From positions 1-41,331 of the forward strand of contig JAMOVQ010000094.1 of NCBI GenBank assembly GCA_027067575.1: a stretch of DNA of 41,331 nt, given 5' to 3'. The position numbers were made by a program, and so were the translations under genes. The notes under the pieces are model-generated. The model saw nothing but the letters and a program-made list of their open reading frames with translations, did not search any database and had not been told where the DNA came from. Shown piece after piece: positions 19,530 to 26,161 of this stretch (position 1 is its first letter; each line of letters begins with the position of its first letter). The DNA is from Thermoanaerobaculia bacterium (GTDB lineage: Bacteria > Acidobacteriota > Thermoanaerobaculia > Thermoanaerobaculales > Sulfomarinibacteraceae).

Positions 19530-22500
19530 ATGTCGATCGCTCGTCCGAACCGATCCGTTTCGATGCTCCTCGTGGCCGTCTGCGCCGCATGGACGGCCGT
19601 TGCAGGGTCCGCATCGGGCCAGTGTCCCGTCCTTGCCGGAAGAAACGGCTTCGGGCCGACCTGGGATCTCGCCGTGGCCGACGGCATCGTGTTCGCCGGC
19701 AGCGGCAGCGTCCTGGTGGCGGCCGAGGCGGTCTCCGGAACGGAACGAGGCCGCGTCGATGTCGGGGGAGTGATCCACGGTGTCACCGTTTCCGGAGGCC
19801 GGGCGTACGTCGCCGCCGACGGGCAGGGCCTCGTCGTCGTGGACGTGACCGATCCTGCCTCGATGAGGGTGCTCGGGACCGGCGTGGGCGCTCCGGTCTG
19901 TCTCGGCGTGGCCGTCTCCGGCGACACTGCGGCGGTGGCGGCGGGGTGGACCGGTCTCGTGCTGTTCGACGTCTCGGACCCCGCATCGCCGCGACGGGTC
20001 GGCGTGTCGTCGGCTGGGGCCTACGCTCTGGCGGTCGCCCTCTCCGGTCGGGTTGCGGCGGTCGGAGAGAGCGTCGGGGGGGTGCGGCTCGTGGACGTCT
20101 CGGACCCGTCGGACCCTGTGGAGCTGGCCACCGTGGACACCGCCGGGGAGGCCGGAGGGCTCGCATTCTCGGGCGACACGCTCTACGCAACGGACAGCCA
20201 GGAGGGGCTCGTCGTCCTGGACGTTGCGGATCCGTCGAACCCGGTCCGGCTCGGAGCCGTGTCCCTCCCAGGGTTTCCGGAGGACGTGGCGGTGTCCGGA
20301 ACCACGGCGTGGGTGGCGGCGGACTACGGCGACCTCGTTTTCGTCGATGTGGCGAACGCCTCGGCTCCTTCCGTGCTGTCGGTCCTGCCGATCGACTCGG
20401 GCGTCGCCGTGGCCGTGGCGGTGGACGGGACGGCCGGCTGGGTGGCCCTCCACGCGGGTGGGGCCGTGCGGGTGGATGCTTCGACCCCCTCTGCTCCCTC
20501 CGAGGGGGCGAGGCTGGCGGCCCACGGGGAGGTCCGCGCCGTGGCCGGAGTCGGGGACCATGCCGTGGTCGCGGACTGGAGCGGCGCAAGGCTGCGGATC
20601 ATCGATCCCGCGGCCGGTGGAGGTCCCGCAGAGGTGGCGTCGGTGGAGTTGCCCGGTACGGCGGCGGCGCTGGCGGTCTCGGGGGGGAAGGCGTACGTCG
20701 CCCTGGACTGGTTCGGTCTCGTGGTGGTGGACCTTGACGATCCGCTCCATCCCGTCATCGAGGGCAGCGTGGCGCTGCCCGGGCACCCATCGGGTGTGGC
20801 GCTGGCGGGAAGCCACGTGCTCGTACCGTGTTCCGGTGCGGGGCTGGAGGTCGTGGACGTCACTGATCCGGCATCGCCCTCCGTTGCGGGCGAGCTGGAG
20901 CTGTCCGGGAGTCTGTTCGGCGTGGGCGTCGTCGGCGATACGGCGTACGTGGCGGCGGGTGGTGATGGGGTCGTGGTCGTGGACGTCTCGGACCCCATCC
21001 ACCCCTCGCGTGTCGGAGCGGCTTCCACCCGTGGCACGGCGCTGGACGTGGCCCCGTTCGGAGACCGCCTGGCCGTCGCGGACTACTACGGCGGTCTGAC
21101 GGTGATGGACGTCTCGGCGCCTCAGACCCCGGTCGTCGAGGGCCATCTCGATCTGCCCGACGCGACCCGGTCCGTCTCGGTCAGGAACGGGCTCGCCTTC
21201 GCCGGTAACTCGCTCCAGGGGCTGACGGTGATCGACCTCTCGGACCCGGCCTCGCCCGCAGCACGGGGGTTCGTCGAGGTTCCCGGGGACTCGTGGGGAG
21301 GTGCGTTCGTCGGGAACCTCTACGCCCTTGCCGAGGGCCAGGGCGGGGTCGCTTTCTTCGACGTTTCCGGATGCGGGTCGGGTCCGGCGGCTCCGGTGGC
21401 GGACTTCTCGTTTCGTCCCTCGGCGCCGAAAACCGGGGAGACGGTCTCGTTCACCGACCTCTCGACGGGTTCCCCGACATCCTGGCACTGGGATTTCGGC
21501 GACGGGTCGGCGAGCACCGAGCGGAACCCGACCCACGTCTACACCTCGTCGGGAACGTTTGGCGTCACACTGGAGGTGGCGAACGGATCCGGGTCGGACT
21601 CCGTCACCAGGACCATCGTGGTGCATCCGGTCGGGGAGTTGCCGCCGATCCACTTCCCGTTCGCGCACCGGTACGTGGTCGCCGCCGCGGCGCACGTTCC
21701 GGGGGCGGCGGGGACGAACTGGGTCACGGACCTCGTGCTCCACAACCCGGGGACGGAGGATGCCATAGTGGATGTCTTCTTCCTCGAGACCGGGAAGGAC
21801 AACTCGGCGGCCCAGCCATCGGAATTCACCGTGCCAGCGGAGAGCTCCGTGAGGTTTCCCGACGTGCTCGCCTCGCCGTTCGGTCTCGGCCATGCGACGG
21901 GAGCGCTGTACATCGGGTCCGACCGGCCGCTCGTGGTGTCGTCGAGAACGTTCAACGACGCTGCGGAGGGGACGTTCGGGCAGTTCATCCCGGGCCCGGA
22001 TCTCTCCCGGTCTCTCGGGACCTCGGAGACGGCGATTCTCGTTCAGCTCGAGGAGGCCGCGGACTCCTCACGAGGGTTCCGGACGAACTTCGGCGTTGCC
22101 AACGTCTCCGGGGTTCCGATCCACGTGGTCGTGGACGGGTACGCGGCGGATGGCGCACGGCTCGGTTCGGTCGGTCTCGACGTCCCGGCGTGGTCCCACG
22201 TGCAGATCAACCGGATCCTCTCCTCCAGGCTCGGGGCGCCGGCGGCCGACGATGCGTATCTCGTGGCCCGGACCGACACGGAGGGCGCCTGCTGGTTCGC
22301 CTACGCCTCGGTCGTGGACAACCGCTCGGGCGACCCGACCTACGTGGCGCCTGCGGACGACTGGGAAGGCCCGGTCTGGATTGCCGCGGCGGCCCACGCC
22401 GAGGGGTACAACGGAACGGTCTGGCGGACGGCGGTGGAGGTCTGCGCGTTCAGTGGGACGCTCGACGACGTGACGCTGCGCTGGGCGGAGGACGGCGCCT

Positions 22501-23060
22501 CCTCCCCGCGCGAGACCTCGCTCGGCGGTGTTCCCGGCAATTGCCGCCGCTTCGGGGACATCCTTGCCGATGCGTTCTCCGCGAACGGCACCGGCGCGCT
22601 GGCGTTCACGGCCGGGCAGGGCCGGCTGACGGTCGGCAGCCGGACGTTCAACGACGCCGGGGACCGGACCTATGGACAGTCGATCCCGGCGGTTCCGGCA
22701 TCCGCGGCGTTCCCGTGGGGGACCACGGCACGGCTCGTACAGCTCGCCCACTCCGCGGATCGCAGCAGGGGGTTCAGGACGAACATCGGCATGGTGAACG
22801 TCGGGGACGTTGCCGTGACGCTGCGGCTCGAGCTCCGCTCGGGGGACGGGGGCTCCCTCGGCGTGAAGACGGTTCGGCTCGCGGCGGGGGAGCACCGCCA
22901 GCTCAACGATGTCTTCCGGGAGTTCACGGAAAGCTCGGTGGACGACGCCTACGCCCTGATCGCGGCCACCACCGGTCCCGCCTCATGGCTGGCCTACGCC
23001 TCGGTGGTGGACAACCGCTCGGGCGACCCCGTGTTCATACCGGCGGTGGCCACCGACTGA
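19530..23060 (+). CDS. Giant secreted LVIVD-repeat / PKD protein with duplicated C-terminal domain
   Basis: ATG 19530 follows AGGAGGT by 5 nt. A signal peptide (VSMLLVAVCAAWTAVAGSAS) leads to a long array of LVIVD repeats of roughly 40 residues, each with words such as LVVVDVTDPASMR and AYVAADGQG; these fold as a beta-propeller-like array on the outside of the cell. A PKD domain follows (WHWDFGDGSAS, near residue 650). The last 470 residues are two copies of a domain of about 235 residues (about 705-944 and 945-1176). Each contains AAAAH...GT-W, a RTFN motif, RGFRTN, and ends AYASVVDNRSGDP. 1,176 residues. Probably an adhesion or matrix protein; no catalytic motif seen. A strong terminator follows. 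Confidence 0.85.
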   Translation: MSIARPNRSVSMLLVAVCAAWTAVAGSASGQCPVLAGRNGFGPTWDLAVADGIVFAGSGSVLVAAEAVSGTERGRVDVGGVIHGVTVSGGRAYVAADGQGLVVVDVTDPASMRVLGTGVGAPVCLGVAVSGDTAAVAAGWTGLVLFDVSDPASPRRVGVSSAGAYALAVALSGRVAAVGESVGGVRLVDVSDPSDPVELATVDTAGEAGGLAFSGDTLYATDSQEGLVVLDVADPSNPVRLGAVSLPGFPEDVAVSGTTAWVAADYGDLVFVDVANASAPSVLSVLPIDSGVAVAVAVDGTAGWVALHAGGAVRVDASTPSAPSEGARLAAHGEVRAVAGVGDHAVVADWSGARLRIIDPAAGGGPAEVASVELPGTAAALAVSGGKAYVALDWFGLVVVDLDDPLHPVIEGSVALPGHPSGVALAGSHVLVPCSGAGLEVVDVTDPASPSVAGELELSGSLFGVGVVGDTAYVAAGGDGVVVVDVSDPIHPSRVGAASTRGTALDVAPFGDRLAVADYYGGLTVMDVSAPQTPVVEGHLDLPDATRSVSVRNGLAFAGNSLQGLTVIDLSDPASPAARGFVEVPGDSWGGAFVGNLYALAEGQGGVAFFDVSGCGSGPAAPVADFSFRPSAPKTGETVSFTDLSTGSPTSWHWDFGDGSASTERNPTHVYTSSGTFGVTLEVANGSGSDSVTRTIVVHPVGELPPIHFPFAHRYVVAAAAHVPGAAGTNWVTDLVLHNPGTEDAIVDVFFLETGKDNSAAQPSEFTVPAESSVRFPDVLASPFGLGHATGALYIGSDRPLVVSSRTFNDAAEGTFGQFIPGPDLSRSLGTSETAILVQLEEAADSSRGFRTNFGVANVSGVPIHVVVDGYAADGARLGSVGLDVPAWSHVQINRILSSRLGAPAADDAYLVARTDTEGACWFAYASVVDNRSGDPTYVAPADDWEGPVWIAAAAHAEGYNGTVWRTAVEVCAFSGTLDDVTLRWAEDGASSPRETSLGGVPGNCRRFGDILADAFSANGTGALAFTAGQGRLTVGSRTFNDAGDRTYGQSIPAVPASAAFPWGTTARLVQLAHSADRSRGFRTNIGMVNVGDVAVTLRLELRSGDGGSLGVKTVRLAAGEHRQLNDVFREFTESSVDDAYALIAATTGPASWLAYASVVDNRSGDPVFIPAVATD

Positions 23061-23126: not shown

Positions 23127-25256
23127 TCAGAAGCTCCAGCCGAGCGACGCCCTGTAGAGCGTCATGGTCCCCGACGTGTCGTACAGGTACGGCGCGTCGT
23201 CGGAGAAGTCGGCGTAGCGCAGGCCGAGGTTCACCCGGAACGACTTGTTGATGTGGTAGGTCGCATCGAGCTCGGCATCGATCCTCGTCGTGTCGAGGTC
23301 CGAGTAGGTGTGCGACTGGGAGAAGTCGAACGCCATCGACGGGTGGGTCGCCGCATACTCTGGTGCGGAGAGCGAGAACGGGTCGAGCCCGGCCTCGGAG
23401 GTTGTCCACGTCAGGTTGAACCCCAGGTCCCACCGGTCGTTCGGGTGGACCCTGAACCCCGCCATCACCGTGTTGCTGGTCGAATCGTAGTTGAGCAGGT
23501 CGCGCGCGTAGCCATCCTGGCCACCCATGACGCCGCCTGCTCACCCATCGAAGATCGGGATGGTGGTCGGCGATTCGAGCTCCGAGTCCAGCCAGGCGTA
23601 CCCGACGTACCAGTCCCAGTGCTCGGACGGCGCGGACCAGAACGTCAGCATGAACGACTGGTTCGTCCGCGACCAGTCGGTCAGGTCGCCTCCGTCGTTC
23701 GAGCCGTCCCACCACCGGTACGTTCCCGAGACGGTTGCCGAGCCCCACGAGTAGCTGGCGCCGAGCCGGATCTCGTCCCAGCTGTCCGGAGAGGCCGTAC
23801 CGTCCCCGATCCGTGCGTCCTGGAACTCGTAGTACTGCGGGGAATGGAACGGGTTCGTGAACGGCGGCGACTCCAGGGTCGACGCCTGCTGGTCCAGCGC
23901 CATGAACGGGTTGTCGATGTCCGCGTGGCGGTACGACGCTCTGAGGTTCCAGTGCTTCGCCGGGTGGGCGTGCCACGTGATGCCCAGCAGGTTCTTCGTG
24001 GTGTCGGTGTCCGTCGGCGTGACGTGGTAGGAGTCCCGGTCGATCCCCTGGTACTTCCACTGGAAGCGGAGCGTTCCGCCCCTGTGGCCGATCCGGTACC
24101 CGACGTCGAACGCGGACTCGAACACGTCCCGGTCGAGCGACGAGAGCCGCTCGAAGTCCGGGTCGAACCCGTACGCCTCCCGGAACGTGATCCCTGCCTG
24201 GGGACCGGCGACGCCGGGCGGCTCGGCCGTGTCCACGAAGAACGGGTCGTTGTCGATGGAGTAGAACCGGCCCCGCCACGTGACGCGCCACTTCTTCCCG
24301 AACCGGCGCGCGGCATTGATCATGTACCCCGAGTAGTCGGCCTCGAGGCCGGTGAACTTGTTCTCCGTGGTGGACCAGACGCCGCCAGCGTTGAAGACGA
24401 AGCCGAGTACGTCGTTGATGTGCAGGTCGAGCCGGGCGATGTCCTTGTCGATGTCGGGCCAGAGGTCGGCCGGCATCGGCCCCTGCGCCGAGTCGTACTG
24501 GAGCCGGTTGTCGAACACGGGCTTCCGCAGCTCTGGGTGCAGGGCATCGTCATAGGTTGTCATGATGTACGGATAGTTCTGGGTCATCTTCCGTGAGGTG
24601 TACCGCGCCCTGACCGTGCCGCCGTGCCAGGCGAGCTTCGCCTCGAGCGTGCCGTCGGTGGTGTGCTCGTTGACGGGGTGGTTGAGGCTGTTGACGTGGC
24701 AGGTGTCGCAGTGCGACAGCGCATACGCCTGCCGGTGCCCCTCGCGGTGCTGGTCCCGGTACTCGAACGCGAAGGTCAGCGCCGGGATGCTCGGAATCTG
24801 TAGCTCTGTCCGGTTCTCCAGGACGGCGTAGTGGATCCCGTAGTCCATGGCCGGGTTGTGGTCGGTGTGGAACACGACCTTCCCGTTGGTCGAGGTGCCC
24901 TCGAGGTTGGTCATCGGATCGTGACCGAACCGGTGGAGCAGCTTGGTGTAGCTCGTGGATGAACGGACGACCCGGCCGATGTCGAAGTCGATGTCGACCT
25001 CGGAGTCGTCGGAGTGGCGGCCGTGGGCCGACACGAGCAGGCTTCCGCCGTCGAAGAACGACTGAAGATCCAGCCCAAGCTCGGGGCCGCCGTCGTCCGG
25101 CTCGTACTCCGAGACCATGTCCGGCGAGTCGTCGGTGCTTGCGCCCCACCCGCCGACGGTCACGGTACCCGTGGTGGACCCGTCCTCGCCGGCCATCGCG
25201 GTCAGCGGCAGCGCGGCGAGGGCCACGATCAGCAGAAGACGAAACGTCCTTGTCAT
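23127..25256 (-). CDS. MtrB/PioB-family outer-membrane barrel of an electron conduit, interrupted by an in-frame UGA
   Basis: The barrel that holds a periplasmic decaheme cytochrome in the outer membrane. ATG 25256 has GGAAGGAGG and is followed by a signal peptide (LLLIVALAALPLTAMA). Strand-rich sequence follows and the protein ends in LGWSF, a barrel C terminus. The reading frame contains one stop, TGA at 23543-23541 (codon 572). The same frame then continues AGGVMGGQDGYARDLLNYDS for 137 more codons that clearly belong to the barrel. Without the stop it would be 709 residues, normal for the family. Options: nonsense mutation or sequence error (TGG to TGA), recoding as selenocysteine, or restart at ATG 23528. 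A heme motif CDTCH is present at residues 183-187. The cytochrome gene lies 14 nt upstream. Confidence 0.85.
23495..23543 (-). other. In-frame UGA with possible SECIS-like hairpin
   Basis: UGA is at 23543-23541. On the mRNA, a 6-pair hairpin (one G-U) with loop GGA spans 23523-23509, so the loop starts 24 nt after UGA. An outer helix with two one-base bulges can pair GCAGGCGGCG (23540-23531), right after the UGA, with the segment ending CCUGC at 23495. A small loop beginning with G at this distance matches the general description of bacterial SECIS elements, but GC-rich sequence forms such stems readily. No Cys or Sec partner lies next to the UGA, which argues against selenocysteine. Confidence 0.25.
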
Positions 25257-25270
25257 GGCTTCCTCCTTCC

Positions 25271-26161
25271 TCACCGCGTCAGTCCGCGGCCGCGACCGGG
25301 AACCGTCTGGGACGGCAGGTCGCTTCCGTGGACCTTGGGGTGGCACTGCGTGCACCGGGTGGTGAACGCGACGTTCATGCTGTGGGTGCCGAACGGGTTC
25401 TCACGCTCCGTGCCGCCCACCTCCACCGGCCCTTCGGGGCTGACGAGCCCCGCGTGGAAGTGGAGCTCGTGGCACTGGAGGCAGAGCATCGGCTCGTTGG
25501 CCGTCAGCAGGTTGTTGGCGACGGTCCCGTGCGGGTCGTGGCAGAGCAGGCAGTTCTCCTCCACCGGCTCGTGCTCAAAGATGAACGGCCCTTCCTTGTC
25601 CTGGTGGCAGGTGTAGCACAGGTCGTTGACCCGTCCCTGCGTGCGGAGCTGGGACTCCGTGGCCGCGTGGGGGTCGTGGCAGCTGACGCAGCTCATCTTC
25701 CCCTCGCGCACTGGGTGGTGGGAGGGCAGTTGCATCTGGGAGCTCACGTCGGCGTGACACGTCCGGCACGATTCCCTCGGGTTCGTGGCGGTGTGGATCG
25801 TATGGCAGTCGAAGCAGGTCAGGCCCTCGGCCGCATGGACCGACGCGTGCCACTCGTTCTGGTCCTTGATCTGGTGGCACTCGAGGCACGCCTCGGCGTC
25901 CTCGGCCGTCCGATCCGCGAAGGTCCGGATGAAGGCGGGATCGCCCTCCTCCTCCATGTGCTTGGTCCCGTCACCGTGGCACCCCTGGCACCCAACGGCG
26001 TGGCCGCCGACCTCGAACGGCTTGATCCGCATGTGGATCTGGTTGGCCATGGCGGCGGCCACATCGTCGTGACACATGCCGCACATCTCCTCCTCCGCGA
26101 GGACCGGCCACGCCACAGCCGCGACGAGCGCCATGATGGCGAGCAGTCGTGTGGCTTTCAT
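25271..26161 (-). CDS. Periplasmic decaheme c-type cytochrome (MtrA/DmsE/PioA-like)
   Basis: ATG 26161 has AAGGAGGAG upstream and a signal peptide (LLAIMALVAAVAWPVLA). Ten CXXCH motifs bind ten c-type hemes, with first Cys at residues 27, 58, 92, 116, 132, 158, 182, 204, 227 and 270 (CGMCH, CQGCH, CLECH, CFDCH, CRTCH, CVSCH, CYTCH, CLLCH, CLQCH, CTQCH). With 296 residues and ten hemes it fits the MtrA/DmsE/PioA group, which forms a heme wire through an outer-membrane barrel. The barrel gene follows after 14 nt. It should pass electrons between periplasm and outside; direction (mineral reduction or oxidation of a donor) cannot be told. No MtrC-type surface cytochrome is adjacent. Confidence 0.95.
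   Translation of the reverse strand: MKATRLLAIMALVAAVAWPVLAEEEMCGMCHDDVAAAMANQIHMRIKPFEVGGHAVGCQGCHGDGTKHMEEEGDPAFIRTFADRTAEDAEACLECHQIKDQNEWHASVHAAEGLTCFDCHTIHTATNPRESCRTCHADVSSQMQLPSHHPVREGKMSCVSCHDPHAATESQLRTQGRVNDLCYTCHQDKEGPFIFEHEPVEENCLLCHDPHGTVANNLLTANEPMLCLQCHELHFHAGLVSPEGPVEVGGTERENPFGTHSMNVAFTTRCTQCHPKVHGSDLPSQTVPGRGRGLTR

Follow-up and report, generated by a model that had tools for sequence, protein, structure and literature searches.

The window, which is the whole stretch of 41,331 nucleotides that we analysed (contig JAMOVQ010000094.1 of a Thermoanaerobaculia bacterium), encodes on its minus strand a decaheme c-type cytochrome and, separated from it by 14 nt, an MtrB-type outer-membrane barrel protein whose reading frame contains an in-frame TGA (Table 1). 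The barrel frame opens with an ATG and has its first TGA at codon 572. Beyond this codon the same frame runs on for 137 sense codons to the terminus ...RASLGWSF and a final TGA (23129-23127). The 137 codons and their aromatic C terminus were as stated in the original prediction, which had been made from the DNA letters alone. Its remark that no cysteine lies near codon 572 was equally accurate, the only two cysteines of the protein being those of its CDTCH motif.

Table 1. Features of the cytochrome-barrel locus, with positions in the window.
Feature	Position	Strand	Evidence
GSU2203-family periplasmic decaheme c-type cytochrome gene, first gene of a presumed two-gene operon	25271..26161	minus	NF041028
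GSU2204-family predicted selenoprotein gene, encoding a 709-residue MtrB-type outer-membrane barrel with predicted Sec at 572	23127..25256 (including final TGA)	minus	
CXXCH haem-attachment motif CDTCH, residues 183-187	24696..24710	minus	C183, C186 and H187 invariant in 29 homologues
UGA codon 572, very probably read as selenocysteine	23541..23543	minus	29 TGA and 2 Cys in 31 genes; invariant column
ATG 12 nt past the UGA, proposed restart, not supported	23526..23528	minus	unconserved in homologues
Predicted bacterial SECIS element, GGA loop (23517-23515) on a 7-pair stem	23508..23524	minus	compensatory changes; synonymous redrawing; published bSECIS model

Residues 9-571 of the barrel protein matched NCBIfam family NF041027, described as "GSU2204 family CXXCH-containing (seleno)protein", at 584.2 bits (curated cut-off 350 bits) and over the complete profile (positions 1-580 of 580). 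The end of this profile coincides exactly with the UGA, the TGA codon following directly and then the open frame described above. The part encoded after the UGA matched Pfam family MtrB_PioB (27.7 bits, cut-off 23), and the protein stayed below the cut-off of TIGR03509, which describes MtrB/PioB decaheme-associated barrels (18.7 bits, cut-off 240.05). The upstream gene showed 350.9 bits to its family (cut-off 325), and the same upstream neighbour was found for four homologues of the barrel gene (L020, L032, L037 and L055). By these profile matches we assign the barrel gene as a new Acidobacteriota member of the already catalogued GSU2204 selenoprotein family. It shares with that family the match over the whole profile up to the UGA, the single CXXCH and the GSU2203-family decaheme partner, and nothing sets it apart from other members. 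Convergent with the barrel gene, the plus strand (19530-23060) encodes an exported-looking protein of 1176 aa with many LVIVDVSDPxxP-type repeats followed by a PKD-like segment.

Decoding of the in-frame UGA

We searched 396 Acidobacteriota genomes and found 32 with a match over the GSU2204 family cut-off. Among the 31 distinct genes that were readable across the codon (the gene in the window included), 29 carried TGA at the site and two, from genomes of one genus (L025 in G369 and L027 in G129), carried TGC; none of the 31 had TAA, TAG or a tryptophan codon. The in-frame TGA is thus conserved beyond chance. A glycine precedes the site, the two following residues are alanine or glycine, and in a protein alignment of 29 sequences the residue at the site was as invariant as C183, C186 and H187. 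One further partial match to the family (L056, G349:C51:16908-18002) contained an in-frame TAA and is possibly a decayed copy.

For a lone in-frame stop in a draft genome a single-base event is the default expectation, and the original prediction had considered a TGG-to-TGA change or an assembly error to be the simpler reading, by which the gene would be broken or misread. The homologues exclude this reading: 28 further genes, taken from independent genomes that span many families, also have TGA here, and no homologue has tryptophan. Nor does a broken gene agree with the purifying selection on the frame past the UGA, where dN/dS against L028 and L031 was 0.28-0.29, the same as before the UGA (the more distant L024, L030 and L038 were set aside as near saturation). 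We therefore regard a nonsense mutation or sequencing error as practically out of the question.

The original prediction had also pointed to an ATG shortly after the stop, from which translation might restart to give two proteins. This ATG does exist, but in many homologues it is replaced by ACG, ACC, ACT or AAC, and in L025 and L027 the site is a cysteine codon within one continuous frame. A barrel ending at the UGA would furthermore be unlikely to fold, as it would lack the last five of its 26 predicted strands. With the ATG unconserved, a restart has next to no probability.

The third option raised in the original prediction, selenocysteine, was supported by two of the checks that it had named, the homologue codons and the content of the genome (3.08 Mb in 191 contigs). 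All four components of the selenocysteine machinery were present: SelB (contig C149, 316.9 bits), a tRNA-Sec with anticodon TCA (C116, 78.7 bits), SelD (C111) and SelA (C141), each over its cut-off. No formate dehydrogenase alpha subunit was found over the TIGR01553 cut-off in this genome, and no other MtrB/PioB barrel was detected elsewhere in it. A preserved downstream frame would be expected from any kind of readthrough, including near-cognate insertion of another amino acid or a general change of the code. Against another amino acid stand the full selenocysteine machinery, the conserved stem-loop described below and the identity of the replacement residue, which is cysteine and occurs in genomes without SelB over the cut-off. 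A general reassignment of UGA as a sense codon is unlikely because the barrel gene itself and several of its homologues terminate with TGA. Insertion of a different residue is accordingly a very unlikely explanation.

SelB was found over the cut-off in 37 of the 40 genomes tested, the exceptions being the two genomes with the cysteine form and a third (G055) without such a barrel. Neither cysteine-type genome had a tRNA-Sec over the cut-off. In G055 a tRNA-Sec was found over the cut-off (61 bits), and the missing SelB is possibly an assembly gap. With 80 candidates scored per genome, no tRNA-Sec was found over the cut-off in four of the UGA-type genomes (G282, G016, G090 and G276) and only weak matches in two more (G222 and G030). 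We counted these six genomes against the selenocysteine reading, and take the missing or weak matches as a detection limit because the assemblies are fragmented and only this number of candidates was scored. The exchange between selenocysteine and cysteine in this barrel family thus appears, on the genomes compared, to be tied to the presence of the selenocysteine machinery. Taken as a comparative genomic argument, these data let us predict with high confidence that UGA572 is decoded as selenocysteine.

A conserved stem-loop after the UGA

The original prediction described a SECIS-like hairpin of 6 pairs with a 3-nt GGA loop 24 nt after the UGA, within a bulged outer helix. The loop and its distance stood, the first loop base being the 24th nt past the UGA, while the stem was found to have 7 pairs (GUGGCCA at 23524-23518 with UGGCUAC at 23514-23508). 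The outer helix was seen in the fold of the single sequence but was not conserved among homologues, only the upper stem-loop being so, and we dropped it from the element. The published model of bacterial SECIS elements describes an apical loop of 3-9 nt with G in the first two loop positions, a stem of 4-16 pairs and a loop located 16-37 nt after the UGA. With its loop sequence, stem length and spacing the hairpin agrees with all of these features. An Rfam scan of the window gave no matches; since bacterial SECIS elements differ widely between genes, this outcome carries no information.

In 22 homologues that could be compared in register over a 9-pair stem, 84% of the cells held standard pairs, in comparison to 71 +/- 2% after shuffling and 32-52% when slid, and 28 cells showed changes on both sides of the pair. 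The covariation score was 0.323 versus 0.114 and was reached by none of 500 shuffles, figures that are not probabilities given that the sequences are related. RNAalifold retained only the 5 central pairs, and we therefore counted pairs on the named structure and against a synonymous null, in which the protein sequence was kept and codons were redrawn from each gene's own usage (2000 draws). The 29 UGA genes formed 192 of 203 possible pairs of the 7-pair stem versus 123.7 +/- 5.4 in the redrawn sequences (maximum 142). In the two cysteine genes the hairpin was degraded, with only 4 and 2 of the 7 pairs.

Across the TGA forms the 3-nt loop sits 22-24 nt past the UGA. One clade (L041-L043, L045, L046 and L057) has an unrelated stem sequence and a GGU loop two nt nearer to the UGA, which suggests, from the sequences compared, that the element may have been remodelled within one gene family.

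Fold, topology and the haem site

A sequence search of the PDB with the barrel protein yielded no relative. An AlphaFold model built from the 29-sequence alignment (mean pLDDT 83.6) contained 26 barrel strands, as counted from the listed strands, of which five lie past the UGA. The best structural match in the PDB was MtrB (6r2q chain B; E 9.9e-24, TM 0.69/0.75), far above TonB-type receptors. The modelled barrel thus resembles MtrB by its fold and would work like MtrB, yet it is filed in a family of its own.

The C terminus of such barrels is generally periplasmic. Counting back from it along the predicted strands placed the short turns in the periplasm and the long loops outside. By this strand counting, residue 572 would lie in an extracellular loop modelled with low confidence (residues 568-582, pLDDT 37) and the CXXCH motif at the tip of a long hairpin, likewise on the extracellular side. 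By strand order, roughly half the barrel separates the two hairpins in the model.

Distant paralogues below the family cut-off (L052, a second copy in G124, as well as L053 and L054 in G060 and G154) kept the CXXCH motif and had neither selenocysteine nor cysteine at the site, which is lysine in L052. A decaheme gene was also found upstream of L052. We considered whether selenocysteine is needed for haem attachment and rejected this, because CXXCH is kept in the distant L052 and L053 that lack selenocysteine.

Known systems and a possible role at the cell surface

The closest known system by structure is MtrCAB of Shewanella, whose MtrB likewise has a decaheme partner gene. Sequence identity between MtrB and the barrel described here is 12%, and the GSU2204 family has the CXXCH haem site and the selenocysteine in addition. 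No MtrC-type gene adjoins the barrel gene in the window. A predicted selenoprotein of a respiratory c-type cytochrome system is also known from ExtKL (GSU2937-2936) of Geobacter, where a conserved TGA within the reading frame drew attention to the cytochrome c selenoprotein (PMC1914089; PMC5877670). It differs in being a five-haem cytochrome of another family, with no barrel.

An MtrB/PioB family barrel is listed as a predicted selenoprotein in a 2022 review (PMC9312934), and the GSU2204 family is among the predicted selenoproteins in a 2026 review (PMC13188914). Judging from the neighbouring reference numbering, the listing of GSU2204 likely goes back to a PLoS Genet 2008 paper (PMC2398784), the main text of which does not name the gene. 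In G. sulfurreducens with hematite, GSU2203 was up 2.7-fold and GSU2204 2.4-fold (PMC4070692). We found no experimental study of the family, the literature consisting of review table entries and this one expression table.

We propose that the stem-loop would direct SelB and tRNA-Sec to decode UGA572 as selenocysteine, and that the barrel would sheathe the decaheme cytochrome encoded just upstream in the outer membrane. The pair would most likely move electrons across this membrane to an acceptor outside the cell. The selenocysteine would be located in a flexible loop outside the cell, on the side that also carries the CXXCH haem of the barrel itself. At this outer end of the conduit it might take part in redox reactions, bind metal or associate with haem. 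We offer such a redox or metal/haem contribution on the outer face as a hypothesis, our confidence in any specific role being much lower than in the decoding itself. More tentatively still, selenocysteine and the barrel's c-type haem could together serve a two-gene conduit as its extracellular redox terminal, so that no MtrC-type outer cytochrome would be needed; we consider this conceivable but rather doubtful.

New for this family are the covariation evidence for the SECIS element, the cysteine replacement linked to the absence of SelB, and the hypothesis of a relay at the surface. The phylum-wide UGA/Cys pattern, together with this covariation and the occurrence of cysteine where SelB is missing, raises what had been an entry in a catalogue to a selenoprotein prediction with good support. 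Ordinary gene calling halts at the UGA and yields a truncated barrel and a fragment, and thereby conceals an MtrB/PioB-type conduit, the only one that we detected in this genome. The need for selenocysteine in an outer-membrane electron conduit, apparently on its outer face, becomes a testable question. If true, our hypothesis of an extracellular redox terminal would bring selenium chemistry right to the surface of cells that respire minerals or metal(loid)s.
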